Source of the DNA: Streptomyces sp. NBC_00670
Lineage (GTDB): Bacteria > Actinomycetota > Actinomycetes > Streptomycetales > Streptomycetaceae
DNA: 64,000 nt
Assembly (NCBI RefSeq): GCF_036226765.1
Contig: NZ_CP109017.1
Coordinates: 1-64,000 of the forward strand
Direction of reading: 5' to 3'
Below the pieces are notes generated by a model. That model was not told the origin of the DNA, made no database searches, and saw only the letters and a program-made list of their open reading frames with translations. Made by a program: the position numbers and the translations under genes. Positions 42,219 to 64,000 of this stretch are shown here, in pieces. Every line of letters begins with the position of its first letter. Position 1 is the first letter of the stretch.

Positions 42219-42219
42219 G

Positions 42220-42309
42220 GTCATCCCCGCGTGAGTGGGGGTCTTTCTACGGCCGCACCACCGGTGGCGTCACCACCTGGTTGTTCCCCACTTGGGTGGG
42301 GGTCCGCCC
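42220..42309 (+). CRISPR. CRISPR array 1: two repeats, one 32-base spacer
   Basis: Repeats lie at 42220-42248 (core CCCCGCGTGAGTGGGGGTCT) and 42281-42309 (core CCCCACTTGGGTGGGGGTCC), 61 bases apart, with a 32-base spacer between. Repeat length and hairpin (CCCC...GGGG) are those of actinobacterial type I-E. It lies 290 bases beyond the end of the TnsC-like gene, with its leader to the left. A single spacer directly beside the transposase genes recalls the short, separate guide units known in some CRISPR-associated transposons. Confidence 0.8.
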
Positions 42310-42595
42310 TCAACGAACACAGTCAACCGGCCGCTGACCAGCGAGCGGGCGCCGGACGAGCCTGGCTTCGTGGGCCTAGACGGGGCTCCGGGGCAAGCGG
42401 CCCATACGATGCGTTGGTTGTGGCGGGTTGGTCGTTGTTCGACACCTCCGGGAGGGTGGATGTGCCAGCCGCTCCCCAACGTTGAGGGTCACCGGGCGTG
42501 GAGTATCGCGGATAGTTGCCTGTGCCGCACCGCCAGCTCCCGTGGCGGTGCGGATACGCCAAGACGCCGAGATCCTCATCAGCGGGGGCGGCGCT
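42310..42595. other. Gap between CRISPR array 1 and tnsC, nothing recognised
   Basis: There is no gene, repeat or terminator that I can support. If the locus is a transposon, one end might be expected around here. I looked for the TGACATCG-n3-TGAGA sites seen at 50.5 and 59.2 kb and did not find them. Confidence 0.4.
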
Positions 42596-43464
42596 TCAGT
42601 CGGTGTGGCGTTGGGTGGGGTCGAGGCGGCTGAGGACGGCGCGCACGAGGTCCCGGCTGTAGGGATGGAGCGGTGCGGCTGCGCTGTGTGGAGTGGGCGG
42701 GTGCGTCAGACCCGCGCTACCGGCCCCCTTCGGGCCTGCGCCGCCGTGCTGTTCCCGGAGCAGGTAGGTGATTTTGGCCCACTGGCGGAAGTTGCCGTGG
42801 CAGGCGACGTCGTCGATCCACAGCAGTTCGTCGGTGGGTACGTCCGCCCACAGCGGGTGGTATTCGGGGACGACGGTGAGGACTTCGGCCGGGGTGAGGG
42901 GCTTGTAGCGCTGCCAGACGAGGATGCGGGAGTCCAAAGCCGGACGGTTCTTGATCTTCTGGTAGCAGGTTTCGGCTCCGACCAGAACGACGGCGAGGCG
43001 GGTGTCCTCGTCGTCCCAGAGCTCGCGGATGAATTCGAAGGCCGGGTGTCCAGCCACTGTGCTTCGTCGACGACCAGGACGCGCGGGGTTTCCGACAGGG
43101 CTTCCTTGAGGAGGGTTTCGCAGCGGGTGCTGTTGAGGGGGGCCTCGCCGGGCAGGTCGAGCTTCTTGTACAGGGCGGCGCGCAGAGCCTGGATTTTGGC
43201 GGAGCCGACTTTGATGCGCAGGGTGGTGTGGGGGGCGAGATCGTCGAGGTGGCTGTTGACGGCGAAGGTCTTGCCCAGGCCGACGCCACCGTGGACGCAC
43301 ATGATGGCGCCCTTGCCGGCGTCGGCGTTGAGGGTGGTGACAAGGTTGGCGTAGGTCTCTGCGCTGGCCTGGGTCAGCATGGCGCGGGCACCGGGCAGGC
43401 CCATGTAGTGGTAGTTCGGGCCAGCGGTCGGCTGGTTCTCGGGCGTGGTCGTCGGGTGGGTCAC
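42596..43464 (-). CDS. tnsC: TnsC/TniB-like AAA ATPase, apparent one-base frameshift
   Basis: The GTG start at 43464 overlaps the transposase stop (GTGA), so the two are translationally coupled. Walker A GGVGLGKT is at 59-66 and Walker B VLVVDEAQ at 129-136. The frame is then lost after WLDTR (residue 141). The next frame continues with AFEFIRELWDDEDTRLAVVLVGAE (sensor 1) and ends ...RLDPTQRHTD at 42596. Adding one G in the run at 43044-43046 joins both parts into a normal ATPase of about 289 residues. Such ATPases (TnsC, TniB, MuB) link target selection to the DDE transposase. Real mutation, sequencing error or recoding are all possible; no slippery heptamer is visible. Confidence 0.8.
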
Positions 43465-45047
43465 TCGGTGTCCTGGGGCTTGGGGCCGGGCCGGGGCTTG
43501 GTCCAGCGGGCGGAGTCGGGCTGGGGCCGGTTGAGGAGGTCGGGCCGGGCCTCGGCGTGCAGGTGACCTTCCGGTGTCTGCAACTGGCGTAGCTGGGCGG
43601 CTGCCTGGCTGGCGGTGAGCCGGTTGAGGGGTTCGGGCGCGGCGGCGACGCTGGTGGCGGCGTAGCGGGGTGTGGCGTTTTTGCGTGCTCGACGGGCTTT
43701 GGCGGCGTAGCGGTCGGCTTCGCGTCGGCGGGCGTTGTGCAGTGCGCGGGCTTGGCGGGGGCTCATTTCGTCGCTGCGGAAGGCGGGGCCGCGGTAGGTG
43801 AGGGTGTCGGCGTCGTAGAGTTCGACGCGGTGGTAGTGGTGGGGTTCGTGGCGCAGGCGGACCATCTCGCCGGCGCTTGAATGGCCGTGCATCCAGTCGC
43901 CGACGTAGTAGGCGCTTTTCCAGCGGACGCCCTTGCTGGTGACCTTCCGGGGTGGGCCGGCGTCGGTGAGGGTGTAGGTGTGCAGGTCGGCGGGGTCGAG
44001 GGTGTCGATGGGGGTGAGGTCGGCGTGCCAGGCCTGGGCGGGGGTGCGCCGGTGGAGGCGGGCGATGGTGTGGTCGTTGTTCCACCAGTCCACCCAGTCG
44101 AGGACGACGGTGACGAAGGTTTCGTAGTCGAGGAGTTCGTTAAAAGCCCACAGGGGCTGGCCGCGGCGGTCGCGGCGGCTTCGGGGGGTGTGGGCGTAGC
44201 CGGGCAGTCCTTTGAACAGCATGTGCTTGGCGGCGCCGTTGATGGCTTCGACGGTGCCTTTGAGGTGGGGGCTGTAGGGCGGCAGGACGATCAGTTCGGT
44301 GCCGAACTTTTTGAACGCCTCGTCCACGCACCTGCCCAGGAAGTCGCGGCCACGGTCGGTGCGGATCTTGCGGGGGATGCCGCCGAAGGGCCGGTGGTGA
44401 TCCGTGCAGAGGATGGCGTCGCGGGCGGCGGCCAGGATGGCGTCCTGGCTGGGCTGGTGGGGGGTGATGGCCAGCCCGCAGATGACGGCGGTGGTGTGGT
44501 CGATGAACCAGGTGATCCAGGGTTTGCGGCGGCGGCCGTCGATGTTGACGAAGACGCTGGCTTCGACGTGGTCGGTCTCCCAGACGTCGTTGCGGTTGCC
44601 GTGCGGGCGCAGGGCGTGCACGTCGTGTCGGCGGCGGGCGGCTTCGCCTCCTCTGAGGGCGGCACGCTGGCCGGGCGTGAGTTCCCGGCCTACGGCGCGG
44701 TAAAAGGTTGCCTGGGATACACGGGGCGGGTTGCCAAAGATGCCGTCGCCGACGAGTTCGCGGTAGGTGGCTGCGGCGTTGCCGTTCCATCGGGCCAGGG
44801 CTTCGTGCATGGCCGGGGTGAGGGTGAAGTGGCGGCGGCCTTGGGGGGTGTAGGTGCCGTTGTGGGTGGTGGCGTTGTCCATCCAGCGGCGCACGGTGCG
44901 CCAGTGGACGGTGAAGGCGGCGGCGACGGTACGCACGTCGTAGTGGGTCAGGCGTTCGGCATTACGCAGGCGCAGTAGGCGGCGTACGGCGGCGGCGCGC
45001 AGGGAGGTGGTGTCGTAGGGGCCGTTGGGTGGTGGTGTGGCGGGCAC
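43461..45047 (-). CDS. tnsB: TnsB/TniA-like DDE transposase in the cas operon
   Basis: The product has 528 residues. An N-terminal helix-turn-helix (about 35-55, VRTVAAAFTVHWRTVRRWM) is followed by the rve core with Asp159 (VWETDHVEAS), Asp231 (RTDRGRDF) and Glu267 (LKGTVEAING). The last two are 35 residues apart, the classical D-35-E spacing. The WWNNDHTIARLHRRTPAQAW box and a Mu-type C-terminal barrel (about 370-420) complete the Tn7/Tn5053/Mu architecture. The GTG at 45047 lies 46 bases after cas6e, in the place where cas1 normally begins in type I-E loci. All key residues are present. Confidence 0.9.
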   Translation of the reverse strand: MPATPPPNGPYDTTSLRAAAVRRLLRLRNAERLTHYDVRTVAAAFTVHWRTVRRWMDNATTHNGTYTPQGRRHFTLTPAMHEALARWNGNAAATYRELVGDGIFGNPPRVSQATFYRAVGRELTPGQRAALRGGEAARRRHDVHALRPHGNRNDVWETDHVEASVFVNIDGRRRKPWITWFIDHTTAVICGLAITPHQPSQDAILAAARDAILCTDHHRPFGGIPRKIRTDRGRDFLGRCVDEAFKKFGTELIVLPPYSPHLKGTVEAINGAAKHMLFKGLPGYAHTPRSRRDRRGQPLWAFNELLDYETFVTVVLDWVDWWNNDHTIARLHRRTPAQAWHADLTPIDTLDPADLHTYTLTDAGPPRKVTSKGVRWKSAYYVGDWMHGHSSAGEMVRLRHEPHHYHRVELYDADTLTYRGPAFRSDEMSPRQARALHNARRREADRYAAKARRARKNATPRYAATSVAAAPEPLNRLTASQAAAQLRQLQTPEGHLHAEARPDLLNRPQPDSARWTKPRPGPKPQDTE

Positions 45048-45093
45048 GCGTCGGGGTCCTTCTTGGGGTGGCGCGCGTCGGGGCGCGGGTGGG

Positions 45094-45804
45094 TCAGGCG
45101 GGGGCGAGGGTGAGCAGACCGGCGCCGTAGGGCTTGCCGCGGCCGATGCCGGTGAGTAGGGCGTGGCTGAGTTGGTCGGGGTCGGTGATGGTGGCCAGGC
45201 CGTCGAAGCGGGTCAGTGCGTGCATGGGGCCGGGAGAGTGGGCTTGTTCGCCGGGCTTGTCGGCGCGGCGGCGTGTGCGGGGGAAGCGGGCGGGGGTGAT
45301 GTCGGTGGTGGCCAGGCTGAGGCCGGCTTGGTGGGCGCGGCGCTGCCACCAGGCGAGGGCGTCGTCGCCGTAGAGGGCGACGACTTTTCTGCCGTGCTTG
45401 TTGTCGACGGGGTGGTGGTCGTCCAGGACGCGGCGGGCGGCGCTGGCGTTGGCGGTGATGCGGTAGCGCACCGCTCGGCCGGGGGTGAGGGCCTGGAACA
45501 TGGGGTGCAGGGGTCGGGTTTCGGCGCTGCCGTAGTGGTGGGGCAGGCGGGTGAGGTCGGGCGGCTGGTGGGACTGGACGAGCAAGGTGGGTGGGGTGTC
45601 GTCGGTGGCGTCTTCCAGGCGAAAGAGCAGGCCGGCCTGCTGCCGGGGGTTTTCGCCGAGGTCGTCGGGGGCCAGGAGCATCACGCTCTTGTGCAGGCTG
45701 ACGGCGTCGGCCAGGTCACGGCGGGCGGCCGGGCTGCGGCGGTTGAGGCGGATCCGGGTCAGTGTCGCTGTGGTGGCGAGGGCGGCGGTTGGGGTGCTGG
45801 TCAC
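45094..45804 (-). CDS. cas6e: Cas6e (Cse3) crRNA-processing endoribonuclease
   Basis: The product has 236 residues. His38 in LHKSVMLLAPDD is the expected catalytic region of Cas6e. The sequence then shows RYRITANASA and ends in the glycine-rich GIGRGKPYGAGLLTLAP typical of RAMP proteins. The GTG start overlaps the cas5e stop as GTGA. Cas6e cuts the repeat hairpin and remains on the crRNA 3' end in Cascade. The transposase gene follows on the same strand. Confidence 0.93.
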   Translation of the reverse strand: MTSTPTAALATTATLTRIRLNRRSPAARRDLADAVSLHKSVMLLAPDDLGENPRQQAGLLFRLEDATDDTPPTLLVQSHQPPDLTRLPHHYGSAETRPLHPMFQALTPGRAVRYRITANASAARRVLDDHHPVDNKHGRKVVALYGDDALAWWQRRAHQAGLSLATTDITPARFPRTRRRADKPGEQAHSPGPMHALTRFDGLATITDPDQLSHALLTGIGRGKPYGAGLLTLAPA

Positions 45805-46592
45805 GGGGTGGCGTCCTGGTGGATGTAGGCGGTGAGTTCGGTGAGCGCGGGGGGTGGGGCGTACAGGGCGGCGGGCAGGTCTTCGGTGGTGTGCCAGGTA
45901 CGGCGGGTCTTGTGGAAGCGCCGTGTGGGAGTGAAGTCGTGGGGGACATCGGCGACTTCGCGTTCGCTGTGCGCGGCAGGCACGTGGGAGGGCGGGTGTT
46001 CCCAGACGAAGGCGACGGGCACGGTGGCCTGGCCGGTGCGCGGTGGTGTGGTGAGGCTGAGCGGGACGTGGTGGAGGAGTTCACCGATGGGGTCGGGGTG
46101 CGGGCCGCCGAGGACGAGGGGTTCGTTGGGGAGGCAGGCGCGCCGGCCGAGGTAGGGGCCGAAGGCGGGTTGTTCGAGCCGCTTCAGGAGGTGTTCCAGG
46201 AACGGGTCGGGTCCTTGGACGGCGAGGGTGAAGACGGCGTCGGCGAGGTAGACCCGTTCGGTGATGAGGGTGGACTTCTCGCGGGGGCGGTAGGCGCCGC
46301 TGCTGGTGCGCAGGCCCTGGCGGTGCGGGCGGCCGCCGCCGACGGTGTGGTAGTCGGTGTGCCGGGTGCCGGGGCGGTCGATGCGGACGGTGAACGTCAG
46401 GTCGGTGTAGGGATTTTGGCCGGTGGCCGGGTCGGGGGCGAGGGCTTCGCTGCGGGGGCGTGCGTCGGCGGCGGCGAACAGGCCGATGAGGGCCGAGCGG
46501 GAGGGGAAGGGGAGGGTGTCGCGGTAGTGGAAGGCGGCGTGTTCCCCGAACGACATCAGCGGTGCGGCCAGGCGCAGCAGGATGCCGTTCAT
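45801..46592 (-). CDS. cas5e: Cas5e (CasD) Cascade subunit
   Basis: The product has 263 residues. It begins LLRLAAPLMSFGEHAAFHYRDTLPFPSRSALIGLFAAA, the hallmark N-terminus of Cas5e, and contains HTVGGGRPHRQGLRT and the EHLLKRLEQPAFGPYLGRRACLP block. It holds the 5' handle of the crRNA. Start and stop overlap both neighbours by 4 bases (ATGA, GTGA), showing a tightly packed operon. Confidence 0.94.
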   Translation of the reverse strand: MNGILLRLAAPLMSFGEHAAFHYRDTLPFPSRSALIGLFAAADARPRSEALAPDPATGQNPYTDLTFTVRIDRPGTRHTDYHTVGGGRPHRQGLRTSSGAYRPREKSTLITERVYLADAVFTLAVQGPDPFLEHLLKRLEQPAFGPYLGRRACLPNEPLVLGGPHPDPIGELLHHVPLSLTTPPRTGQATVPVAFVWEHPPSHVPAAHSEREVADVPHDFTPTRRFHKTRRTWHTTEDLPAALYAPPPALTELTAYIHQDATP

Positions 46593-47779
46593 ACGAGGGT
46601 CCCGGTGGGCAGGGCCGCGTTTTTGGTGAGGGCGTCGATGAGGTCGTCGAGACCGGCGTGCGCGGTGCCGAGGTGGTCGACGGGGCCGGGGTGCAGGGTG
46701 GCGTAGCCGCAGCCGACGAGGCGGCGGGTGCCCAGCAGCCGGTTCAGAGCGCCAGCATGCTCGGACAGGGCTGTGATGGCGGGAGCGGTGTGGCCGCCGC
46801 CGGGCGCGTGCTTGACGGGCTGTTCGAAAGCGCCAGCGTAGGAGACTGGGCGGCGGTCACGGATCGTGTAGTGGACCAGGTGGGGGTAGGTGTGCGGGGC
46901 GGTGGAGGTCTTCTTCGCGCCGGGCATGACGTCGATGAAGGCGTCGGCGAACAGGCCCAGCAGGTGCAGGGCGTGGTCGTGGTCGCCGTTCAGGTTGCGG
47001 GTCAGTTCGGTGAGGTTGACCGTGGCGTAGCGGTAGAGCAGGCCGGTGGTGAAGAACGCGGTCTGCAGGTGGGCGCTGCCGGCCTCGTTCGGGGCTGCCC
47101 AGTCCTCGACGGCGGTGAAGTAGTCGGGCTGGGGGGAGCTGGGGTGGACGGTGAAGGCGGGTGCCATCTGCACGGCGCCGTCGACGTGGGCGTCGGGCAC
47201 CTCGGCGAGCATGCGGCCGAAGAGGTTGATGGTCGCGGTGCGCCGGCGGATCACGGAAGCAACCCTGGGTGTGGGCAGGACGGCCTCCGCCTTGGGCTTC
47301 TTGCGGGGTCCCTTGGCCGGGGCGGACTGTGCGGCGGTTTCCTTGGCGAGGGCTTCTTCGAGTTGTGGGCGGTGTTCGGTGCACAGGTCGGTGAGGTCGT
47401 CGAGGACGTCGCGCGGCAGGTAGAGGGTGGCCGAGGTGATGCCGCGCTGGTCTTCCTCGGTCTTGATGCCTTCTGTGGTGGCCGAGCGCACGATCTGGGT
47501 TCCGGCGAAGGCGGCAAGGTCGGTGGGCCAGCCGGCTGCGCGCAGGGCGTCGGCCACGCGCAGGGGCAGCATGCGGGTGCGGGCGGCGTGCTCGTCCAGG
47601 ACGTCCTCCAGGCGCAGGCGGATGGCTCGCTTCCAGGACTGTGAGGACACCAGGGCGCGGACCACGCCGCCTAGGTTCAGGGTTTTGGGCAGGTCGTCCT
47701 CTCCCCGGTTGAGGAGGGAGGCGGGCAGGGGGTGCAGGATGTGGAAGTCGGCGTAGCGAGCGGGTGCGTAGGCGGCCAT
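46589..47779 (-). CDS. cas7e: Cas7e (CasC) Cascade backbone subunit
   Basis: The product has 396 residues. The N-terminus (YADFHILHPLPASLLNRGEDDLPKTLNLGG) and FGRMLAEVPDAHVDGAVQMAPAFTVH are typical of Cas7e. The C-terminal part includes YRYATVNLTELTRN. Several copies of this protein coat the spacer part of the crRNA. The ATG starts one base after the cas11 stop. Confidence 0.95.
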   Translation of the reverse strand: MAAYAPARYADFHILHPLPASLLNRGEDDLPKTLNLGGVVRALVSSQSWKRAIRLRLEDVLDEHAARTRMLPLRVADALRAAGWPTDLAAFAGTQIVRSATTEGIKTEEDQRGITSATLYLPRDVLDDLTDLCTEHRPQLEEALAKETAAQSAPAKGPRKKPKAEAVLPTPRVASVIRRRTATINLFGRMLAEVPDAHVDGAVQMAPAFTVHPSSPQPDYFTAVEDWAAPNEAGSAHLQTAFFTTGLLYRYATVNLTELTRNLNGDHDHALHLLGLFADAFIDVMPGAKKTSTAPHTYPHLVHYTIRDRRPVSYAGAFEQPVKHAPGGGHTAPAITALSEHAGALNRLLGTRRLVGCGYATLHPGPVDHLGTAHAGLDDLIDALTKNAALPTGTLV

Positions 47780-47780
47780 G

Positions 47781-48443
47781 TCAGTGCTCCTTGGACGTCA
47801 GGGTGTGCAGGGTGAGGAAGTAGTTCTCGCGCCATCGGGCCGCGGTCTCGAGGCGGTCGTCGTCCCACCAGGCCAGGTCCTCGAGCAGGACGGCGAAGTC
47901 GAGGCGGGCGGCGCCGCGGCTGTTCAGGTGGCCGGTCAGCGTCCATAGCCTCGGGTGCAGCAGCGAGGTGTCGAGCCGGGTGAGGGTTTTGACGCGGTTG
48001 GTCATGGTGGCTTCCTTGAAGCCGTACCGGGCCACGGCGATGGCGAGGTGGGTGCCGAGATCGGGACGGCTGCGCCAGGGCCGCTCAGCCGGGCTCGCTG
48101 CCGATGCCGGGGCCAGGTGGTCGGCCGCGGGTGCTGCGGTCGCGGTCGGTGCGGTGGTGTCCGGGTTCTTGCCGGGGGTGGGCAGCTCTGGCCGGTAGGG
48201 GCCGTCTTCGTGGGGCAGGTCGCGGTGCAGGGCGATGAGTGAGGCCACGGTGTAGTGGGCGCGGCGTGCTCCGAAGCCGGCGATGTGCCGGGTGAGGTGC
48301 TCTGGCATGCGGGAGCACTCTGCGACGGGCCGTCCGAAGCCTGAGTTGAGGTCGGCGCGGATGCCGTTGACCGCGCACAGGGTGATGACCTGGTGGACGA
48401 AGTCGTCGTAGTGGGCGCGGCGTTGTGCGGTGGTGACGGGCAT
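47781..48443 (-). CDS. cse2: Cas11 (Cse2/CasB) small Cascade subunit
   Basis: The product has 220 residues and is mainly helical and basic. FGARRAHYTVASLIALHRDL and LAIAVARYGFKEATMTNRVKTLTRLDTSLLHPRLWTL are the conserved Cse2 parts. A low-complexity Ala/Pro/Thr insert (about 105-135) separates them. It stabilises the R-loop in the complex. It starts 60 bases after the cas8e stop. Confidence 0.93.
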   Translation of the reverse strand: MPVTTAQRRAHYDDFVHQVITLCAVNGIRADLNSGFGRPVAECSRMPEHLTRHIAGFGARRAHYTVASLIALHRDLPHEDGPYRPELPTPGKNPDTTAPTATAAPAADHLAPASAASPAERPWRSRPDLGTHLAIAVARYGFKEATMTNRVKTLTRLDTSLLHPRLWTLTGHLNSRGAARLDFAVLLEDLAWWDDDRLETAARWRENYFLTLHTLTSKEH

Positions 48444-48503
48444 AGGGGTGGCAGCCTTCGATAGGGCGGCAAATAGAGGGCAGAGGGCTGTGGTGAGGGA
48501 AGG

Positions 48504-50099
48504 TCAGCGGCTGCGCAGTCGTAGCTGGGCCAGGGCTGTGGCAATGGCTTCGGCGGCGCGGAAGTGCTGGGCGATCGCCGGGCGGGTGGCGGTGCGCAGG
48601 GCGTCGATGGCGTCCGCGGCGAACGCCGCGCGGGCGCTGCGGACGGGTTCGTCCAGCAGGCTCCAGAAGGTGGACTCGGCGCGGGGCCAGTACAGGGTGC
48701 GGGCGCTGCGGGTCCAGGGCGGCAGGTGCCGGGGGCTGCCGGAGTTGGTGGTCTGCTTCCAGGCGTCCTGGGAGAGGCGGTCGAGGTGGGTGCCGATCTC
48801 CTCGGCGGCCTTGCGGCATTCGGCGATCCGCTCAGCCGCGCCCGGATCGCACTCCTGCGTCCAGGGCCAGATCGGCGGGGTCAGGGCCGTGTACCAGGTG
48901 CGGTTGGTGGTCTTGCCGTCCTGGTCGAATCCGTAGACCCTCACCCGCAGGGCGGCGCGCAGGTCGGGGGGCAGGTCGTTGAGGGTTGTGAAGGCGTCCG
49001 GGCGTTGGACGGTGTAGCGGCCCTTGCCGCTCTTTGCCTGTGAGCCTTTGCGGTCGTCCTCGTCGCCCGCCAGCAGCAGGGCGTCCAGGTCGCGCCACAG
49101 GGCCCGGTCGGCGTCCGCGCGGCGTGGTCTGTGGCGCCGGGTGACGGGCTCGTCCGCATGGAAGTGATGGATGAGGTAGGGGTCGAAGGCCGGGAGTTTC
49201 TTCTGGGTGGCCCAGGTCAGGTAGGCGTCGATGACCTGGCGTCCGTCCGGTGCGGGGATGAGGAGGACGGCGTGGCGGGAGCGGCCGGTCAGCAGCCGGC
49301 CCGGTGATGACACCGGCAGCGGCGCGGCATCGGGGTCCAGGCCATCGTCGAGGTCAAGGTCGTCGTCAGGGTCGGGGGCGGGCAGCGGCTCCTCCCACGG
49401 GCAGCGGTCCACGGCGTCCGGCCACGACGGGTCGGGCTTGGGTATGCCGGCCAGGAGGGTCTCGTACAGGGTCCGGCCCAGGGGGTGGAAGGACAGACTC
49501 GAGCGCAGTGGGCCGGCTTTGGCACGGTTGAGCGAGCGGCCGCCGACGGTGCGCACGGAGCACTGGCCGGCCGCGCCGTAGTAGTGGTGGATGAGCAGGT
49601 GCCATAGCGCCTGTGCGCTGGGCACCGGCTGCGGGTCGGTGTCGGAGTGCGGGCTCAGCCAGGAAAGGTTGTTGCCTTCGGGGCGGCCGAAGACGAGCTT
49701 ATTGACGCCGGCGCGTTGCGGGCACTGGCTGGCCAGTCTCGGGTCTTGCAGGAATGGCCGCACCGGGTGGAACAGGTCCCAGATGTAGTTGTCGAAGTAG
49801 GCGTGTACGGCGTCGGGGTCGAACCCGTCGGGATGCGTCAGTAACTCGCGGCGGCGGGCCGCCCACTGACGTGCCGTCATGCGCCGCTCTCCCCGTGCGT
49901 CCAGGCCGCTGATCCGTGCGGCCATCACAACGAGCAGGCGCAGGACGGCGGATGCCGCCGGCGGCACCGGCAGTGCCAGGTCCTTGATGAGGTGGGCGCG
50001 CAGCAGTACGTCCCGCCATCCCAGCTCCTCCTGGTGCCCGTCCGGGAAGATGACGGGAATGCACGGTTCTTTGTCGGTCTGAAAGTGCGGTAAGGACAC
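48504..50099 (-). CDS. cas8e: Cas8e (Cse1/CasA) large Cascade subunit
   Basis: The product has 531 residues. The Cse1 pattern is clear: GWRDVLLRAHLIKDL near the start, AVHAYFDNYIWDLFHPVRPFLQDPRLA, then VNKLVFGRPEGNN. WHLLIHHYYGAAGQ follows, with the helical bundle at the end. Cas8e recognises the PAM and recruits Cas3; in CAST systems the large subunit contacts TniQ-bound Cascade. The GTG at 50099 follows GGAGCCTGT. It is the first gene of the long operon running to tnsC. Confidence 0.94.
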   Translation of the reverse strand: MSLPHFQTDKEPCIPVIFPDGHQEELGWRDVLLRAHLIKDLALPVPPAASAVLRLLVVMAARISGLDARGERRMTARQWAARRRELLTHPDGFDPDAVHAYFDNYIWDLFHPVRPFLQDPRLASQCPQRAGVNKLVFGRPEGNNLSWLSPHSDTDPQPVPSAQALWHLLIHHYYGAAGQCSVRTVGGRSLNRAKAGPLRSSLSFHPLGRTLYETLLAGIPKPDPSWPDAVDRCPWEEPLPAPDPDDDLDLDDGLDPDAAPLPVSSPGRLLTGRSRHAVLLIPAPDGRQVIDAYLTWATQKKLPAFDPYLIHHFHADEPVTRRHRPRRADADRALWRDLDALLLAGDEDDRKGSQAKSGKGRYTVQRPDAFTTLNDLPPDLRAALRVRVYGFDQDGKTTNRTWYTALTPPIWPWTQECDPGAAERIAECRKAAEEIGTHLDRLSQDAWKQTTNSGSPRHLPPWTRSARTLYWPRAESTFWSLLDEPVRSARAAFAADAIDALRTATRPAIAQHFRAAEAIATALAQLRLRSR

Positions 50100-53898: not shown

Positions 53899-54908
53899 GT
53901 GTTTCCCCACACGGGTGGGGGTCTATCGGTGGCGGCGATGCGTTCGCTGAGTTCTTTTTGGGTTCCCCGCGTACGGGGGGGGTGTTTCGCGGATGCCGCG
54001 GTCGGTGGCGGCATGCCAACGATGGCCCCACCTCACGTGGGGGTCAGTCCCGGCCAACGAACTGGATGATCAGGCTCAGGCGGTGACTCCCCACGCCCGT
54101 GGGGGTCTCTCCATCTGCCTGCGCGGGCTCGAGCCGCACGAGGAGTCTTCTTCCCCACGCACGTGGGGGTCTGTCCCGCTGCTCGGTGGCGGTTGCCCAG
54201 TCGGTTCCGTCTTCCCCACGCGCGTGGGGGTCTGTCGAGCGTGTTGACGCTGCCGAAGGTGCGCTCGGCGTCCCTACACGTGTGGGGGTCTGCCCTGCTG
54301 ATGGATATGGTCTCGGTGAATCCAGGAACGCTCCCCACATGCCGTGGGGGTCTGCCAGGCGCCTACCTCTCCGCCCTGAAGATCCATCTGTTCTCCCCAC
54401 ACGCGTGGGGGTCTGTCGCCGACAAGCCGGTTGCGCAGCCCCAAGGGAGCTTCTTCCCCACGCAGGCGGGTGTCTGTCCCTGGGGTCGGCGAACAGGAAC
54501 GAGGCCAGCACGTCTTCCTCGCGCTTGCGGGGGTCTGTCCCACTGAGCGAGCAGCAGAACCAGGTCGAAGGCGTCCCCACAACGCACGTGGGGGTCTGTC
54601 AACCTTGCCCCGGTCGACAACGATCACCTTGGAACGCCCCCCATACGCGCGGGGGTTTGTCCTTCCAGATGTACGGGTCGCTACTGTCATCCGCGTCCTC
54701 CCCACACGCGTGGGGGTCTGCCCCGGATCCCCGCCACCATCGCCGAATCCGGCCAGCCTTCCCCACACTCATGGGGGTTCATCTTTCCGGGCCTGGGCGC
54801 ACCTGACCGCCCAAGGGAATCCTCTCCACGAACGCGGGGGTCCGTCCGACCCACCGCTCAGCTCCTCCCGGTGGAGACCGTCTTCCCCACATGAGTGGGG
54901 GTCTCTTC
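53899..54908 (+). CRISPR. CRISPR array 2: 17 degenerate type I-E repeats, 16 spacers
   Basis: Seventeen repeats of about 29 bases recur every 60-63 bases, at 53899, 53960, 54022, 54084, 54148, 54209, 54268, 54329, 54390, 54451, 54512, 54571, 54633, 54694, 54755, 54819 and 54880 (starts approximate). The shared core is close to CCCCACgcGTGGGGGTCTGTC. Hardly any two repeats are identical; copies differ in the arms, the loop and the last bases. Spacers are mostly 31-34 bases and all different. Such wear fits the absence of cas1-cas2 in this window: the array is probably no longer renewed. It follows cas3 head to head. Confidence 0.95.
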
Positions 54909-55073
54909 ACGTGAATAGGCGCCCCAGAGGGGAAGTTGAGCTTTTCCTCCGTCCGCAGGAACCGGTTCTGCACTCACTTGCACGATGCGAGTCGCCAGCC
55001 GGTCGGTCCTGCAGCTTGCCGACGCCCGTACGCCTGTGGCGGCCGCCCGGGGTGCGCCCCCCACCCACTATTG

Positions 55074-55088: not shown

Positions 55089-55159
55089 AAATGGGGTAAG
55101 GTTGCTTGCCGCCGGCTGCGAGAACCGGTGGCGGACCGGGACAGCAAAGGGACTTGTGC

Positions 55160-56647
55160 ATGACCACCGACCATGAGCTCTCCAGCGGCTTCCGGGCGCC
55201 CGCACACCCGGCCTTGGCGTTCGAGACCTACAGCGAATACGAGGTGGCCACGGCCCCGCGGACCGTGACCGGCCAGCTCTTCCACTACACCAGCACCACG
55301 GCTGCGGTCACCGGCATCCTGGCCACGGGCACACTGCGTCTCTCGCCCTACAAGTCGACCAATGACCTGTGGGAATCACAGCCTCACTACCCGACGCTCA
55401 GCGCGCATCACGACGACGAAGGTCTCGATGCCGGCTTCTCCCTCTGGGATGAGATCGACCGGCAGCTGCGCCTGCACGCCAAGGTCGGATGCCTGACCCA
55501 GGACGTAGCCCTGCCATCCGATGTGTTCAACCCCGATGCACTGCGGGGATGGGCCCACCTGTCGCAGTGGGCGCACTACGGTGCCGGGCACACCGGCGTG
55601 TGCCTCAGGTTCGACTGGGACAAGCTCGTAGAATCCTTTCTCGAACACGCCGGTCCCGCAAGCTTCGCCTTCCACGGTCCGGTCCGGTACCTCAGCAGCC
55701 AGGACAGTCCCCCCACCCGCGGAGTCGATGTCGGCCAAGTCGCGGAGTTCGGAGCGGATGCCGTGGCCCTGGCCTATGCGGAAGCCAACAAGGACTCGTT
55801 GTTCTTCCGCAAGCACATCGACTGGGACAGCGAGGCCGAGTACCGGCTCATCCTGCTGAATCAGTCCACCGAGTTCGACTACGTCGACATCCGGACCGCA
55901 CTCACCGGTGTCGTCCTGGGCAACGCATTCCCGCAGGAGCACGTACGAGGCCTGCTGGAAGCCCTCAAGCCTTACCCCGACGTCACCGTGGAGTACCTGC
56001 AGTTCCTCAACCGCAGGCTGCACTGCTATCCCTTCGAGGGCATCGTCCCACAGCCTCGGCCGCTGTCCGCCCAGGCCTGGCCCGCTCCACGGCGGGACGG
56101 CTCCCTGGCAGAGCGGCTGCTGGCGCTGCGCAGCGCTGAAACCGAGGCCGAAGCACGCCGGCGGGCCGCGGCCCTTCTCGTCCAGGAGCCTCTGACACAG
56201 CTCGCAGAGGGTGCGGCGAGGCTTGCCTCGCAGCTGAGCCTGTGGCCTGGGACCGAGGTGGACAGCTACTCCCGGACCACGGCCGTACCCGGACACCTGC
56301 ACGCACGAAGCCCTGGCGTCCCCGGAGAGGTCGTCCACTACGAACGCGGCTTCCTCTGCGTGGTGGAGAACCTTCCCCGTCAGTCACACACTCTGACCGC
56401 ATCGGCGGCCATCCAGGTCCTGGACGACGAGAAGCTGCGCCTTCACGCCGTGGTGGACACCGAGCATTGGCTGCCAGATGGAAACCAGCGCGAGGAACAC
56501 TGGCGCAGCGAGTGGGAGATCCATGCAGCCGATGCCCCAGCCGCGCTGGCAGCACTCCTGAGCGAGCTGACCGCTGCTGTGCAGCATGCCCGCACGGCAT
56601 TCGACGACACTCGCTGCGCCAGCTCACAGTCGGAAGAAGCACCGTGA
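55160..56647 (+). CDS. DUF2971-family protein beside the CRISPR array
   Basis: The product has 495 residues from the ATG at 55160 (AAAGGGACTTGTGC before it). FHYTSTTAAVTGILATGTLRLSPYKSTND is the conserved start of DUF2971. HLSQWAHYGAGHTGVCLRFDW and FRKHIDWDSEAEYRLILL are further conserved blocks, giving a domain of about 290 residues. The family is often found in phage-defence islands and its fold recalls ADP-ribosyl-transferring proteins, though the function is unproven. The last 190 residues (ALRSAETEAEARRRAAALLV..., then a beta-rich end) look like a separate domain. It lies between array 2 and a regulator gene. Confidence 0.8.
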   Translation: MTTDHELSSGFRAPAHPALAFETYSEYEVATAPRTVTGQLFHYTSTTAAVTGILATGTLRLSPYKSTNDLWESQPHYPTLSAHHDDEGLDAGFSLWDEIDRQLRLHAKVGCLTQDVALPSDVFNPDALRGWAHLSQWAHYGAGHTGVCLRFDWDKLVESFLEHAGPASFAFHGPVRYLSSQDSPPTRGVDVGQVAEFGADAVALAYAEANKDSLFFRKHIDWDSEAEYRLILLNQSTEFDYVDIRTALTGVVLGNAFPQEHVRGLLEALKPYPDVTVEYLQFLNRRLHCYPFEGIVPQPRPLSAQAWPAPRRDGSLAERLLALRSAETEAEARRRAAALLVQEPLTQLAEGAARLASQLSLWPGTEVDSYSRTTAVPGHLHARSPGVPGEVVHYERGFLCVVENLPRQSHTLTASAAIQVLDDEKLRLHAVVDTEHWLPDGNQREEHWRSEWEIHAADAPAALAALLSELTAAVQHARTAFDDTRCASSQSEEAP

Positions 56648-57471: not shown

Positions 57472-58683
57472 ATGGGACGTCCGGAAGGGCAGATCAGCCC
57501 GGCAGCCGAACCCGCGCTCAGGGCGCTGGCCCTGTGGCTGCGTGCTCAACGTCAGCGCGCAGGGCTCACGTATCAGCGGATGGCCGAGCGAACCAGCTAC
57601 ACGCACAGCACGCTCTCGCGCGCAGCCCAGGGCAACCGGATCCCGCGTCTGCAGGTTGTCGAGGTCTACGCCAGGGTCTGTGGGGCTGATGTCGCCGAAG
57701 CCAGGAGGCTGTGGCGCCGAGCACGGCAGGCCGGTGTGCAGGCGGGTCCCGGAGTCCTCTCACCGACTGTGGTACGCCCCGAGTACGTTTCGGACTTCGC
57801 CGGGTTGCACGCGGCGATGATCAACCTGCGCCGAAGTGCTGGCGTGCCGTCACTGCGCGCACTGGCGCAGAGAGCTGGGGGGCATGGCGAGTTGCCACAC
57901 AGCACGCTCCATCGCGTGGTGAGCCGGCAGGCCATCCCGTCCCGCCGCCATCTCGCGGCGTTCGTTAAAGCATGCGGGGTCAGCGGGACGGCCGTTCAGG
58001 AGTGGACCGCTGCCTGGGACCGCGCCTGCGGACTGCGCACGGAGCAGGCGACCGCGCTGGCTTTCAGGGCGGCTTTGCCGTGGCCGGTGTCGCCTGCAGA
58101 CCCTTCCCGCGGCGCGGACACTCTGGCAGCGATGACGCGTCTGCTCGCCGCGGGTTCGCCAACGTTCAAGGGCTTTGTCGAGATGGAAAGTGCAGTTGTC
58201 AGCGCGCGCTCCGGCAAGCTGTTCACCCTGTCTGCCCTGTACTACGGCAACCGGAACCTGCTGGATGGCATGGAAGCCGATGCCGCACGTCAGCTCCAGC
58301 TCGCTGATCTGTACTGGGGCGCTGTGGATGCCGTGATCCCGCAATGGGAGATGGTCCGCCGCCGTGTGCTGCACGCGGCCGAGGTCCGCAAAACCTACCT
58401 GCACAGTCACGGCATTGCTCTGCACTGTCTGGGATCGATCGGCAATGTCCTTCTCAGACAGTCGGAAAGCCCCCGCAAGTGGGCGCCGTACCTTCAGCGC
58501 CTGGGCAGTATCGACTGGGCCCGAACCAACCCGGACTGGGAGGGCCGTGCGCTTGCCGACGGACGCATCGTCAAGAGCCTTCACCACGCCGTTCTCGCGA
58601 CTGAGTACCTGCGCCGGCGGATGGGACTTCCGCACAGCGGTGCCCTGCAGCCGGCGCCGCACCAGGGCAGCGTCCCATTGTGA
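57472..58683 (+). CDS. XRE-family regulator with long helical C-terminus
   Basis: The product has 403 residues. The N-terminal XRE domain (about 22-75: LRAQRQRAGLTYQRMAERTSYTHSTLSRA) is of the kind frequent in Streptomyces. A second helix-turn-helix-like segment lies near 115-165. The C-terminal 200 residues are helical and recall TPR-like sensor regions (AEVRKTYLHSHGIALHCLGS). Its target is not known; palindromes at 55.07 and 59.95 kb are possible sites. Confidence 0.75.
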   Translation: MGRPEGQISPAAEPALRALALWLRAQRQRAGLTYQRMAERTSYTHSTLSRAAQGNRIPRLQVVEVYARVCGADVAEARRLWRRARQAGVQAGPGVLSPTVVRPEYVSDFAGLHAAMINLRRSAGVPSLRALAQRAGGHGELPHSTLHRVVSRQAIPSRRHLAAFVKACGVSGTAVQEWTAAWDRACGLRTEQATALAFRAALPWPVSPADPSRGADTLAAMTRLLAAGSPTFKGFVEMESAVVSARSGKLFTLSALYYGNRNLLDGMEADAARQLQLADLYWGAVDAVIPQWEMVRRRVLHAAEVRKTYLHSHGIALHCLGSIGNVLLRQSESPRKWAPYLQRLGSIDWARTNPDWEGRALADGRIVKSLHHAVLATEYLRRRMGLPHSGALQPAPHQGSVPL

Positions 58684-58907
58684 TCACGCGAGGCTCAAGC
58701 GGTCAGTGCACGCAGTCAAGCCACCCGCTTCCGCGAACAGCTAACAGCCGTGATCCACCGCGTCAGTCCCAAAGACGACTAGCAGCTGGGCAGTTCAGGA
58801 CCGCGCAAGGCAACCACTGTGAGGCAACATCCAGCACCAGCACAGCCAGCACGTGTAAGTAACTAAAAGACAGCCCGCTGATCTTCAAGCCCGCAAGGTC
58901 ACCAAGG
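58684..58907. promoter_or_regulatory. Leader region of CRISPR array 3
   Basis: There is no gene. The last bases before the first repeat (CCCGCAAGGTCACCAAGG) match the end of the leader of array 1 (CGCAGGTCAGCAAGG). The AT-richer stretch AAGTAACTAAAAGAC lies 40 bases upstream, as expected for a leader promoter. Confidence 0.6.
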
Positions 58908-59059
58908 GTCTTCTCCACACGCAGTGGGGGTCTGCCCGTCGGGTACAGCAGTTCGAACCATTCCGGCCCGTCTCTCCCCCCACGCGTGGGTGTTTGCCCG
59001 GCCTGCGGAGACCTTCGTCGTAGCGCGGGTGTCTTCGCCACACACGTGGGGGTCTGTCC
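58908..59059 (+). CRISPR. CRISPR array 3: three degenerate repeats, two spacers
   Basis: Repeats lie at 58908-58936, 58970-58998 and 59031-59059. Cores are CCACACGCAGTGGGGGTCTG, CCCCACGCGTGGGTGTTTG and CCACACACGTGGGGGTCTG, with spacers of 33 and 32 bases. A damaged fourth copy (GTCTTCCCCGCGCCCGCACC) begins at about 59075 after only 15 bases. The repeat type matches arrays 1 and 2. Confidence 0.88.
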
Positions 59060-59160
59060 ACGATGATCCTCATGCGTCTTCCCCGCGCCCGCACCTTCCT
59101 CAAGCGCGTGGCGCCTCCACGAACGGAAGAAATCAGCAGGTCAGAGCCCTGACCCTATGG

Positions 59161-59302: not shown

Positions 59303-59325
59303 GGAGGAGAGCAACACTTGCCGGT

Positions 59326-59826
59326 ATGCCGAGCTTTCAGCAAAGGAAGGCCGTGGGCGACGCGCACGAAAAACGTGTCGCTGAGGAACTCGCCCTGCGC
59401 GGATGGGACGTCAGCCCCTGGGGCCAGGGCGTGCTGACCGAAGCGGTGCGAGTCGCCCTGCGGGGCACGGAGAGTTCGCTGCGGTGGACACCCGATCTGG
59501 TGGCCGCCAAGGACCGGCAGGTGTTTCTGATCGACTGCAAGAGCCGCATGACCAGCCGCATCACCCAGCGCCATGCGGTGGAACGGTCCGCCGTCATGGC
59601 GCACCTCCAGCTCGCCGCATGGACCCAGCTGCCGATCTGCTACGTCTTCGACAACCTCGACGTCCTCACTCCCCTGGACGTCCTGATACTGGGCCGCACA
59701 GGTCCGCAACCCGCCGCAGGCTCAGGCTCCCCCTACCACCTGGTGCCCACGAGATGCTCCCTCGCATTCGACGAGGTGTTCGGAACCACGCAGCAGCTAC
59801 ACACCCCCGAACTCGGCGCCGCCTGA
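59326..59826 (+). CDS. PD-(D/E)XK nuclease-like protein
   Basis: The product has 166 residues from the ATG at 59326. Upstream ATGs (59266, 59275) are in frame but lie inside the repeated sites; AGGAGGAG at 59302-59309 fits the later start only loosely. The nuclease core is visible: Glu15 (GDAHEKRVAEELALRGWDV), Asp57 (RWTPDLVA) and D70-C-K72 (VFLIDCKSR). The fold resembles Hjc/Mrr nucleases and, more distantly, TnsA, which also has a PD-(D/E)XK core with a preceding Glu. It lies between array 3 and the TniQ gene. A TnsA-like role is possible but not shown. Confidence 0.7.
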   Translation: MPSFQQRKAVGDAHEKRVAEELALRGWDVSPWGQGVLTEAVRVALRGTESSLRWTPDLVAAKDRQVFLIDCKSRMTSRITQRHAVERSAVMAHLQLAAWTQLPICYVFDNLDVLTPLDVLILGRTGPQPAAGSGSPYHLVPTRCSLAFDEVFGTTQQLHTPELGAA

Positions 59827-59937
59827 CCCGGTCGGAATATGGAACCGGTCGAACAATGACGACAACTGACCGCGTTGCGCGCATGGTCGGGCAAAGAGCG
59901 GTCCCTCTTCGTTCTCAGGGGCCGGGTATTGCCGTGC

Positions 59938-59967
59938 GGACGCTAGCGTCCCCCGAAGTGCGCACTT
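59938..59967. promoter_or_regulatory. Two adjacent perfect 14-bp palindromes
   Basis: GGACGCTAGCGTCC (59938-59951) and GAAGTGCGCACTTC (59954-59967) follow each other 20 bases before the ribosome binding region of the next gene. Both look like operator sites. Confidence 0.65.
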
Positions 59968-59989
59968 CTGCGGGAGGCTGGACGTCATA

Positions 59990-60559
59990 GTGGAAGCGGT
60001 CTCGGAACTTCTCACCCTCAGAACGGACTACGCGGCCAAGATCGATGCCGACCTGGAGCTCGTCGAGAAGGATCGCGAGCGTGTCCGTGCGGAGATCACC
60101 GCCTTGCAGGATCAGCTTCACACCCTGGAGGGCAATCACGCGCTGCTACTGAGCATGCGGGAGGCCCTGTCGGGTCACTCCCCCGCCGCCTGCCCGGAGC
60201 CGGGGCCGGACGGTGCAGCCACGACCGGCAGCAGTCCTGCCGTTCCGCTTGTGTCCGGCGGCGTGCCGCACACCGGCGACGGTGCCGCTGGTGATTGTGG
60301 CCGGGGTGACGGGGCACCGAAGGCGGGGAAGAAGGCGCCGACGCTTCGGGATCTGGTGGCCGATGAGCTGAAAAGGCGGGGCGAGCCCTGCTCGTCGCAC
60401 GACGTCGCCACCGCACTGGCCCGGGCGCACCCAGGCCGGAGGATCAAGGAGCCTGCGATGCGTCACGCGCTGGAGGCGCTGGTCGCGCAGGGGCGGGCGG
60501 GGCGGTCCAAGCGCGGCTCGCGCGTCTTGTACTTCTCGGCCGGCATGGGCAAGGACTGA
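59990..60559 (+). CDS. Coiled-coil and winged-helix protein
   Basis: The product has 189 residues with a GTG start at 59990. Residues 5-60 form a coiled coil (AAKIDADLELVEKDRERVRAEI). A Gly/Pro-rich linker (65-110) and a winged-helix domain (LRDLVADELKRRGEPCSSHDVATALARAHPGRR...MRHALEALVAQGRAGR) follow. It is probably a dimeric DNA-binding regulator. Two palindromes precede it. It converges with the helicase gene. Confidence 0.7.
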   Translation: MEAVSELLTLRTDYAAKIDADLELVEKDRERVRAEITALQDQLHTLEGNHALLLSMREALSGHSPAACPEPGPDGAATTGSSPAVPLVSGGVPHTGDGAAGDCGRGDGAPKAGKKAPTLRDLVADELKRRGEPCSSHDVATALARAHPGRRIKEPAMRHALEALVAQGRAGRSKRGSRVLYFSAGMGKD

Positions 60560-60592
60560 CGTCCGCCCGCCCGGCGGAGCGTGGTCGCTGGT

Positions 60593-62942
60593 TCAGGCAG
60601 CCGTCTCACGAAGTGGCTGCGCGGGCGACAGGAAGACCAGCATCGTCTCGAAGCCCAGAGCCGCCAGGCCGGCTTGCTGTCGGGGCGTCATCTGGGCGCT
60701 GTCCCTGCGCCGTCGAGCCAGCCAGGCCCCGAGGTGGACCTGTTCGCCGAAAACCTCTTCGGTGTGGTCCTTGGGCATGTCGAGGTGCCCATGGCGCTGG
60801 TGGTACTGGCGTGCCGCGCGCAGCCCGCGGTTGAAGGCCCGCTCGCGCAGGCCGGTGGGTCGGGTCAGCAGCATGCTGTGGGGGTGGGCGTCGGGGCAGG
60901 CGCGGGCCAGGGCGGCCAGGAGATGTTTTTGCTGGGGATCGAGCAGGTGCATGTGGGTGATCTGGCGGTCCAGCCAGCTGCCCCAGGCGGAGTCACGGCT
61001 GTCGTGGCGGTGGTAGGTGCACCGCCAGGTGCTGGTGGTCAGGCGGCGTCTGATCTGCGCGTAGGTGTACTGCCAGCGCAGGCTCCAGGGCGGGTTCCAG
61101 AAGGGGTCGACGGCGTTGAGGGAGGCGATGCGGGCGGGGGCGAGCCGGCCGGTGTCAGCGCGGCAGCGCATGGTCTCCAGCCAGGCGGCCAGGCGGCGGT
61201 CGCCGCCGTGGGCGTTCTTGCCCAGGGCGAGGGTGCCGTGACGGGCGGCGCAGGCGGTGATCTGGGCCAGGTGGTGTTCGAAGCTTTCGGGGGGATGCGG
61301 CCAGGACAGCCCCATGCTGGTGAGGGCGGCGATACGGTCGGCCGGCAGGGCTCCCGCGGCGTACAGGGAGCGTTGCTGGCCGATCCACTGGCCCAGGGCC
61401 AGGCCGTCGCTGGTGACGTGTTCGCTGGGAATGTTCAGGTGATGGTGGCGGGTGCGGAAGGCCTGGGCGGCCTGCAGACCGTCCCTCCAGAAGGCGTTGT
61501 TGGGGGCTTTGTGGGTGCGCAGTTTCAGGGTGCGGGTGACGTCGCCGGCGCGGTGCGGGCGCGGCGCAAGGGGCTGTGGTCGCGCCTTCATGCGGGAGCC
61601 GAAGCGCTGGTAGGCCCTGGTGTCGTAGACGGCGAGTCCGTTGAAGAAGCGCCAGAAGTCCGAGAACGAGGAGGACTCCATGGCCTGTCGGGTGGACTGG
61701 CCGGGCGCGATGTAGACGGGGATGAAGATGGAGGCGCACTTGGCCTGGCCCGGGGGTTTGCGCAGGGCCCGGCCGATGCTCTGGGCGATGTTGTTCGGGC
61801 TGCGGCGCGGATCGGCGATCAGGATGCCGTCGGTGTCGGGGGCGTCGACGCCTTCGCTCAGCACTCGGACGCTAGCGAGCACGGCGCAGTCGTGGCCGGC
61901 GGCGGCGCTGCCCGGGGTGTGGGCGGAGAAGTGCTCGAACTCGCGGAAGATCTGCTGGCGTCGCCAGGGCGCCTGGCCACAGTACAGGGCGTGCGCCCAG
62001 GGGTTTCGGATGCCGGTGCGGTCGGAGAGCACGTCGGCCGTCTCCGGCAGGGAGGCGACGAAACCGCGGGCGGCGGCGATCCGCCCGTGGAAGGACAGCA
62101 CCCGGCGCACGTCGTGTTCGGCCATGGACATCAGCAGGGCTGCCTGCATCGCGGCCAGGCGGAGCCCGTCCTGATGCGGGGTGGGCAGGGGGTCGTGGAG
62201 GATCTCGCGCAGCATCCTGTCGTGGACTTCCGGCACGATGAGCTGGTAGTCGGCGAGGATGCCGCGTTCGATCGCCTCGGCCAGGTCCAGGCGGTAGACG
62301 ACGGGGCCGTAGATGGTGGGGTCGTCCATCGAGGCGAGTCGTTCGATCCGGGTGCGCGCCGTTGGATTTTGCGTGGTGCGCCAGTTGCGGGGCGTGGCGG
62401 TCATGTAGAGGCGGTGCGTGGCCGGGATGGCGCGGTCGTCGTGGATGAGTCCCCAGCGCTTGTCCCAGTCGCCGCTGGTGCGGTGGGCTTCGTCGGCCAG
62501 GGCGAAGGCCCAGGGCGGCAGCCGTTCGCCACGGTGGGCCTCGGCGATGGTGGGCAGGGAGGCGTAGGTGGCGAAGACGGCGATGCGTCCTCCCTCGGCG
62601 ACGCGGCGGGCCAGGACCCGGGCGTCTGCGGTGAGCAGCAGACGGCCGCGCAGGCTGCGGTCGTGAACGCCGGGCAGTGAGCACACGCCGATGAGCTGGT
62701 CGAAGCCGCCGTCGGCCAGCCAGCGGGCCGCGGTCTGGGTCAGGAGTTCAAGGGTCGGGACGAGGACGAGGACGGGGCGCCGCGCAGCGAAGTGCTCGGC
62801 GACGCGCTTGCCGATGAGGGTCTTGCCGGTGCCGCAAGCGGCGATGATGGTCGCGGCCGCGTGTCGCGTGCCGCTCAGGGCCGTCCACTCCCGCGGCGAC
62901 GGCTTCTGTTTGGTGGGGGCGCAGCTGAACACGGCCGGACAT
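60593..62942 (-). CDS. TtrA-like superfamily 2 helicase, apparent frameshift near the start
   Basis: The product has about 780 residues. Motifs are AACGTGKT (Walker A), LADEAHRTSG (motif II), MTATPRNW (motif III) and QSIGRALRKP (motif VI). The helicase-associated domains follow in the C-terminal third (GQWIGQQRSLYAAGAL; LGAWLARRRR). The expected N-terminus (MSGRVQLRPHQTEAVAAGVDG, ATG at 62942) is in another frame than the rest; one extra G in the run at 62878-62880 explains this. Without the shift, an unrelated start at 62995 would be used. It resembles the telomere helicase at 1.1 kb in plan but is clearly diverged. It lies between the coiled-coil gene and tniQ. Confidence 0.75.
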
Positions 62943-62995
62943 GTGACGCGCTGACTCCCTTGTCGCGGAACTCCGTGCCCGCAGGGCACCTTCAC

Positions 62996-63208
62996 CAGCC
63001 TTTTTGCAGTGAAGAGCCTGGCAGCTTTCCCGCAAGGTCCGGCCGACGCTGCTCGAAGCTGCTCTTTGTTTTCTTCGCGTGTGCGTAAGGGGTCGCCTCT
63101 GGGACCGGGTGTAGGCCACGTGAGACCGTTTCGTGAGCCTGGGCTGCCTGCCGAGGGCGGCGGCAGTTAGATGAAGCCGCGGCCGGACATCCCGGAAGGA
63201 GCGCCGTC
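62996..63208. promoter_or_regulatory. Divergent promoter region between helicase and tniQ genes
   Basis: These 213 bases lie between two genes reading away from each other. A T-rich patch (63061-63080) is the likely promoter area. No clear -35/-10 boxes are assigned. Confidence 0.4.
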
Positions 63209-64000
63209 GTGGCGGAGAAGCGGGACCAATGGCTCGGGCGGCGCCGGATGCATCTGCGGCTGCGGTTTCTGCAGGGCGAGTCCACCGGCTCGTACGTGAC
63301 GCGGCTGGCTGCCCGTAACAACCGCCCTACGGAAGAGGTGCTGCGGAGCATGGGCACCGGCCCGGTGCCCGTCGATCCGCAGTACACCGAGATGTACGTC
63401 AGCCGCTACGCGCGTGAGCGGCTGGCCACTCTGGCCGGCCACACCGTGGCCGAGATGCAGGAGCGTCTGATCGGGCTGCGCGATGAATTCCTCATGGACA
63501 AGGACGCCAAGGACGACTGGGAGTGGCCCTGGGACGCGCGGGCCGGCTACATCGTGCAGGCCTGCTCTCTGTGTGCGGCGCGCCGCGGCACCCGCTCGCC
63601 TGCCTGGCTGATCCTTCCCGACCCCTGGCAGGTGTGCCTGCGCCACCGGCGCTGGACGGACAACTCCCGCAGCACCGATACCCCCTACGTCGATCTGAGC
63701 GAGCTCGCGGAGGTCGTGCGCGCGCAGCAGCGCCTGAACCGGGTGCGCAAACGCCTGGGTCCTGCCGGACGGTGGGTGTTCGCGGACGCCTGTTCCGTCC
63801 TCGTGCGCTCCGGGTATCTCGAGGACCCCGCGCAGACGAAGCAGTGGGGTGTCCTCGCGGCGCAGCTGGGCGAGCAGCGGGTGCGGCCCCTGGCGCAGTT
63901 AAGCCGGCTTTCCCTGCTGACCCGGGACCTGGCCTGGCTTGAGGTGCGCCGCCTGAACGGCGTACTGGGCGGCATGGAGTACCAGGACTGGCTGCCGCGG
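63209..64000 (+). CDS. tniQ: TniQ-family protein, cut by the window end
   Basis: At least 264 residues are open from the GTG at 63209 (GGAAGGAGCGCCGTC before it) to the last base of the window. The N-terminal block LRLRFLQGESTGSYVTRLAARN (E24, S28, Y29, R32-L33-A34) is the TniQ signature. Cys119-x2-Cys122 (CSLC) and Cys143-x2-His146 (CLRH), with WLILPDPWQ between, form the TniQ zinc finger. Helices with Leu/Arg repeats follow. TniQ/TnsD proteins choose the target for TnsC-TnsB, and in CRISPR-associated transposons TniQ rides on Cascade. It lies 18 kb from the tnsBC-like genes, with arrays and cas genes between. Confidence 0.85.
   Translation, partial: MAEKRDQWLGRRRMHLRLRFLQGESTGSYVTRLAARNNRPTEEVLRSMGTGPVPVDPQYTEMYVSRYARERLATLAGHTVAEMQERLIGLRDEFLMDKDAKDDWEWPWDARAGYIVQACSLCAARRGTRSPAWLILPDPWQVCLRHRRWTDNSRSTDTPYVDLSELAEVVRAQQRLNRVRKRLGPAGRWVFADACSVLVRSGYLEDPAQTKQWGVLAAQLGEQRVRPLAQLSRLSLLTRDLAWLEVRRLNGVLGGMEYQDWLPR

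Follow-up and report, generated by a model that had tools for sequence, protein, structure and literature searches.

The window analysed here is the first 64 kb of the complete 7.58-Mb chromosome of Streptomyces sp. NBC_00670. Pfam and NCBIfam searches placed the effector and tnsB/tnsC genes on the minus strand between 42596 and 53733 (Table 1), in the operon order cas3-cas8e-cas11-cas7-cas5-cas6e, followed by the gene for a tnsB-like DDE transposase and then by that for a TnsC/MuB-like ATPase. The first-pass annotation had read the region as a full type I-E Cascade set sharing an operon with TnsB-like and TnsC-like genes and accompanied by short CRISPR arrays; both points are upheld, the first by these searches and the second by repeats at three sites, all with a period of 61 bp. 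Since Cas3 is present, the interference module is complete, and the interference genes of this copy look intact. Cas1, which acts as the integrase in classical CRISPR adaptation, had no match anywhere in the complete genome, and no cas2 was found among the genes of the cas operon by Pfam or NCBIfam.

Table 1. Features of the I-E/TnsBC locus and its surroundings (window coordinates)
Feature	Position	Strand	Remarks
two-unit CRISPR block	42144..42340	+	own leader ending gcaggtcagcaagg; repeats 42219-42340
tnsC/MuB-like AAA ATPase	42596..43464	-	frameshifted; AAA_22 9.1e-11
tnsB-like DDE transposase, 528 aa	43461..45047	-	occupies the cas1-cas2 place; rve + Mu-transpos_C
cas6e (cse3)	45094..45804	-	Pfam CRISPR_assoc 4.9e-45
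cas5e	45801..46592	-	NCBIfam casD_Cas5e 2.1e-44
cas7e (cse4)	46589..47779	-	Pfam Cas_CT1975 1e-89
cas11 (cse2)	47781..48443	-	Pfam CRISPR_Cse2 8e-10
cas8e (cse1)	48504..50099	-	Pfam CRISPR_Cse1 1.8e-55
cas3, HD nuclease-helicase, 960 aa	50851..53733	-	Pfam Cas3_HD 3.5e-36, Cas3-like_C_2, Cas3_C; PADLOC Cas3e 4.8e-141
main CRISPR array, 17 units	53899..54940	+	divergent repeats; leader motif unrecognisable at array start
three-unit CRISPR block and possible partial unit	58834..59105	+	leader-like sequence; repeats 58909-59075
tniQ of a separate tniQ-tnsB-tnsC element	63209..64231 (window part 63209..64000)	+	

The profile searches that the first-pass annotation had proposed for the two transposition proteins both gave matches, with rve and Mu-transposase-C domains in the transposase and an AAA_22 domain in the ATPase. 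The nearest PDB entry to TnsB by profile is the TnsB of ShCAST, a type V-K CRISPR-associated transposon or CAST (7svw, 1.4e-25), and a profile built from relatives of the ATPase found MuB as its nearest match (8xvb, 1.7e-10). The D-D-E residues are conserved in all 14 of the TnsB copies aligned. An alignment with the closest relative, genome G091, whose TnsB is 86% identical, puts the window tnsC out of frame from about 43038, which could reflect either a mutation or an error of sequencing within a run of C/G; the TnsC-like ATPase called earlier is therefore present by its domain, but in a frameshifted gene. G091 carries the locus near both chromosome ends (L036 and L037), and in one of these copies tnsB is split across two frames.

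Array units were located with iterated position weight matrices, by which some degenerate units may be missed. A motif, GCAGGTCAGnAAG, is kept just ahead of the first repeat in the arrays of tnsB/tnsC-bearing loci (TnsBC arrays), as it is in the arrays of Cas1-bearing loci; several of the blocks carry a copy of their own. The leader end of the main window array looks as if it had been deleted, its second spacer being the ninth in G091. With its frameshift in tnsC and with no recognisable leader motif at the main array, the window copy is probably failing in adaptation or has already lost it. Among the relatives, the arrays of loci L004 and L039 hold internal leader copies, and for this reason look like several joined leader-array modules. 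An identical spacer or spacer pair recurs in two blocks of one locus in G161 (L096, units 15073 and 17426) and in G118 (units 27834/27895 and 35236/35296; in both cases the numbers refer to the loci after re-orientation), and this recurrence suggests that blocks were duplicated within the two loci.

Several neighbouring genes deserve mention in their own right. Two genes between two of the array blocks, at 55106-56647 and 57472-58683, encode a DUF2971 protein, weakly similar to PDC-S31 (a candidate defence family in PADLOC), and a DndB-like protein that has an HTH domain. The gene at 60593-62995 encodes a helicase that has Helicase-associated (HA) domains, a type that annotations frequently place close to the ends of linear Streptomyces plasmids; helicase genes with HA domains are among those targeted by spacers of related CRISPR systems. 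On the other side of the operon, a UvrD-like helicase gene (40242-41714) is 78-82% identical to genes downstream of tnsC in G034 and G097 (L038 and L043), and is thus a possible neighbour common to the three loci. Beyond the window, a SMODS nucleotidyltransferase gene (chromosome 71201-72259; L002:13202-14260) lies near a JAB-domain gene (68873-69349), and the two may possibly be part of a CBASS-type defence cluster.

The same gene order, cas3-8e-11-7-5-6e-tnsB-tnsC, is annotated on the Streptomyces plasmids NZ_CP134205 and NZ_CP030074, the latter a plasmid record of S. cadmiisoli, and comparison revealed it at further loci on chromosomes, so that it is conserved across 14 loci in all. A Cas5e like that of the window is encoded in 22 of 393 genomes; those other than the window's own are a sample and partly drafts. 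These 22, together with G097, whose contig holds the tail of the locus, formed a comparison set of 23 genomes. Thirteen of them have a close, cas-linked tnsB homologue without a full Cas1 match, and in nine of the remaining ten cas1 lies no more than about 2 kb from cas5e. The one exception, G048, lacks both cas1 and this tnsB, and the stretch of it that was examined yielded neither cas8e nor cas3. G254 gave a weak N-terminal Cas1 match; similar matches occur in three genomes alongside a genuine cas1, and the one in G254 was taken as unrelated to that gene. The co-occurrence for which the first-pass annotation had proposed a survey was thus found for I-E cas genes with tnsB/tnsC and without cas1, but did not extend to tniQ (see below).

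In a tree of concatenated Cas proteins the TnsBC loci are monophyletic (support 1.0), as are all 14 of the cas-linked copies in the TnsB tree (0.988), and the branching of the two trees is largely congruent. Close homologues of the DDE and ATPase pair are frequent where there are no cas genes, often lying close to the end of a replicon, and one might therefore picture a two-gene transposon that came to lie by chance beside an I-E operon that had lost cas1-cas2. The tnsB start lies only 46 nt past cas6e, an operon-like spacing that, like the order and congruent monophyly seen in 14 loci, argues against such an accident, and we give it practically no credence, since the congruence of the Cas and TnsB trees refutes it; the chance neighbourhood that the first-pass annotation had thought trees might reveal did not appear in them. 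Judged by these trees, the presence of tnsBC in the place of cas1 is evidently one ancient replacement, and the conserved order and largely congruent, monophyletic trees support the view that the I-E cas genes and tnsB/tnsC are functionally connected.

The first-pass annotation had further proposed that the locus is an RNA-guided transposon using the tniQ gene of the region. A tniQ gene does start at 63209, but it belongs to a separate tniQ-tnsB-tnsC element: beyond the window it is followed by a tnsB of its own (64825-67530) and then by a weakly matching AAA gene (66972-68597). This tniQ-tnsB-tnsC-like element, spanning 63209-68597 of the chromosome, has a Tn5053/Tn7-like gene set. Of 150 genomes of the genus, 16 have a homologue of its tniQ, counting the one that the window comes from, and none was found in six other I-E/TnsBC genomes (G028, G034, G068, G091, G097 and G118). 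Given the adjoining tnsB and tnsC and the absence from six related genomes, tniQ was rejected as a part of the CRISPR system. With tniQ assigned to a separate element, Cas3 retained and neither convincing ends nor a convincing self-target found, the proposal of an RNA-guided transposon using this gene finds no support.

A version of the idea without TniQ, in which the I-E Cascade would recruit TnsC directly and move the cas operon, could draw on the co-inheritance of TnsB and the TnsC-like ATPase with Cascade, on the type V-K CAST origin of the nearest TnsB in the PDB, and on the occurrence of the loci both on plasmids and at various sites in chromosomes. However, the retained Cas3 would degrade targets, and a search of the flanks of 12 loci for inverted repeats of 15 nt gave one isolated 15-mer in the window and none that was convincing (ends were sought as inverted 15-mers and homology boundaries, so that shorter or degenerate ones may be present). 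Homology between G118 and BB1-1-1, which have the locus in different genomic contexts, stops a few bases past the tnsC stop codon. Matches of the window spacers to their own genome were weak and partial at most, none of them convincing, and plasmid genes are what the spacers are directed at. As the nearby tniQ is also part of another element, we regard a TniQ-less CAST as improbable.

The locus is a member of a kind of arrangement that is already known. While the first-pass annotation knew of no well-characterised I-E case, I-E/TnsBC loci, a variant of the Streptomycetaceae, are credited in the literature to Faure et al. 2019, who are reported to have noted that transposon ends are lacking and to have proposed TnsBC as an alternative adaptation module in place of Cas1-Cas2 (as summarised in passages of PMC8730458 and PMC12231136). 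For this hypothesis, in print since 2019, no experimental test was found in the literature searched. As far as those passages describe the variant, the window locus agrees with it in gene content, loss of cas1, position of tnsB-tnsC after cas6e, variable spacer length and absence of transposon ends, and differs in its frameshifted tnsC and in a main array whose leader is not recognisable. The repeat divergence, leader-end differences, PAM-flanked plasmid targets and anti-tnsBC spacers described below go unmentioned in the same passages of PMC8730458 and PMC12231136. With CRISPR-associated transposons of types I-F3, I-B and V-K the locus shares the linkage of a CRISPR effector to a transposase resembling TnsB and an ATPase resembling TnsC; unlike them, it keeps Cas3, has no TniQ of its own and no ends that could be found, and carries ordinary anti-plasmid spacers. 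CasMu-I and CasMu-V likewise link a Mu-type transposase and ATPase to CRISPR (PMC10910872), and the ATPase here is nearest to MuB; CasMu systems, however, no longer have an active effector nuclease, and their ends are defined (PMC10910872), whereas cas3 is retained in the window locus. Canonical Streptomyces type I-E systems have the same effector genes, 61-bp array period, leader motif and AA-type PAM (AAN is reported for S. avermitilis, as cited in a passage of PMC12231136), but have cas1 beside cas5e/cas6e and repeats of 94-100% mean identity, neither of which holds for the window locus.

Concatenated spacers matched Streptomyces plasmids at up to 97-100%, in genes that include those for HTH regulators, helicases and TniB-type ATPases and a neighbour of conjugal-transfer genes, with 5'-AA[C/G] as the flanking PAM. 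Among 225 spacers, counted without those of BB1-1-1 as near-duplicates of the G118 spacers, 25 matched the neighbourhoods of CRISPR-less tnsB relatives, compared with 2 when the spacers were reversed; these neighbourhoods had been retrieved for another purpose and not for a target search. AA stood at the PAM position in 20 of the 25 targets, as opposed to 7.6% of random sites, and the next base was mostly C or G. At least four window spacers (W_54083, W_54147, W_54328 and W_54755) have plausible targets, most of them with AA, and the target of W_54083 is the tnsB/tnsC region of CRISPR-less relatives. Targets in or within about 600 bp of CRISPR-less tnsB/tnsC genes are those of W_54083, G118_26481, G254_11931, G254_12052, G068_26769 and G385a_11492. 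A phage search with 4.2 kb of spacers, reaching through most of the G068 array, returned one weak match to a Microcystis phage, which was judged to be due to chance.

The TnsBC arrays are conspicuous for their irregularity. Mean pairwise repeat identity is 0.67-0.90 in 12 of them versus 0.94-1.00 in nine Cas1-bearing loci, and the standard deviation of unit length is 0.5-4.1 versus 0-0.3; at 1.14 in the window array, it implies a variable spacer length. The most uniform repeats (0.90) are those of G161, which is nested in the TnsBC clade. The repeats flanking 18 spacers whose plasmid-type targets are matched at 94% or more (mean 96%) are on average 83% identical, gaps allowed; had they been identical at acquisition and drifted at the rate of the spacers, a difference of at most about 8% would be expected. 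The excess may stem from imprecise copying, from selection on the spacers while repeats drift, or from recombination of arrays, three sources that are inseparable here. Neighbouring repeats are more alike than random ones in five of the 12 arrays (G118, L004, G068, G034 and G161), and not clearly so in the window array (p = 0.07). No significant correlation was seen between spacer-target identity and excess identity of the flanking repeats. Pairing in the repeat stems (88-95%) was no higher than in shuffles, and for this reason stem covariation speaks neither way.

Spacer content was compared between related arrays. G118 and BB1-1-1 have their leader-proximal spacers in common, and no spacer gain is seen on the time scale that separates them. 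G254 shares two distal spacers with G118, in the same order, and one with BB1-1-1, while the leader-proximal 10-16 spacers differ between G254 and the other two, G254's own ten being all different. This is the pattern expected of acquisition at the leader end once the lineages had diverged, in a clade that lacks cas1, although the distal spacers that polarise the comparison could be independent matches to one gene. In G028 and G265 the first unit is common and nearly all others are different.

These observations also bear on the view that acquisition has ceased, in which the spacers would derive from an ancestral cas1-cas2 or one acting in trans in an earlier host, the arrays would be decaying, and TnsBC would be employed elsewhere, for example in moving the locus. 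Ordinary decay could account for the repeat divergence seen in all TnsBC arrays, and the frameshift in the window tnsC and the static leader ends of G118 and L004 would fit it as well. Against it, some spacers have PAM-flanked matches of 94-100% in extant plasmids, so that many of them are not old, spacer content is largely different between related arrays, the repeats of G161 are nearly uniform inside a cas1-less clade, and the catalytic residues of TnsB are conserved. We therefore consider such an end to acquisition unlikely, if less so than a TniQ-less CAST.

Taken together, the results make it probable that the I-E/TnsBC group provides plasmid- or chromosome-borne adaptive immunity in which a domesticated TnsB-TnsC has replaced Cas1-Cas2 in adaptation. 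Cascade and Cas3 would carry out ordinary interference, and TnsB-TnsC would add spacers at the leader in the place of Cas1-Cas2. We infer that TnsB-TnsC itself performs the integration, and that repeats are copied or maintained with lower fidelity by this pair than by Cas1-Cas2. Relatives of the window locus appear, from their spacers, still to collect new ones against plasmids. Rather more tentatively, TnsB-TnsC may represent a second, independently evolved DDE spacer integrator, which would use the same leader anchor and take up PAM-flanked spacers, with imprecise repeats that diverge faster than the spacers. Suitable material for testing the hypothesis is offered by G161, with its near-uniform repeats, and by the trio G118, BB1-1-1 and G254, with its leader-end differences. 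The spacers against CRISPR-less tnsB/tnsC suggest that one use of such a system would be competition among related mobile elements on linear replicons. If the transposase pair is indeed the integrase, CRISPR memory would have arisen a second time, and the chemistry of integration might then be a different one.
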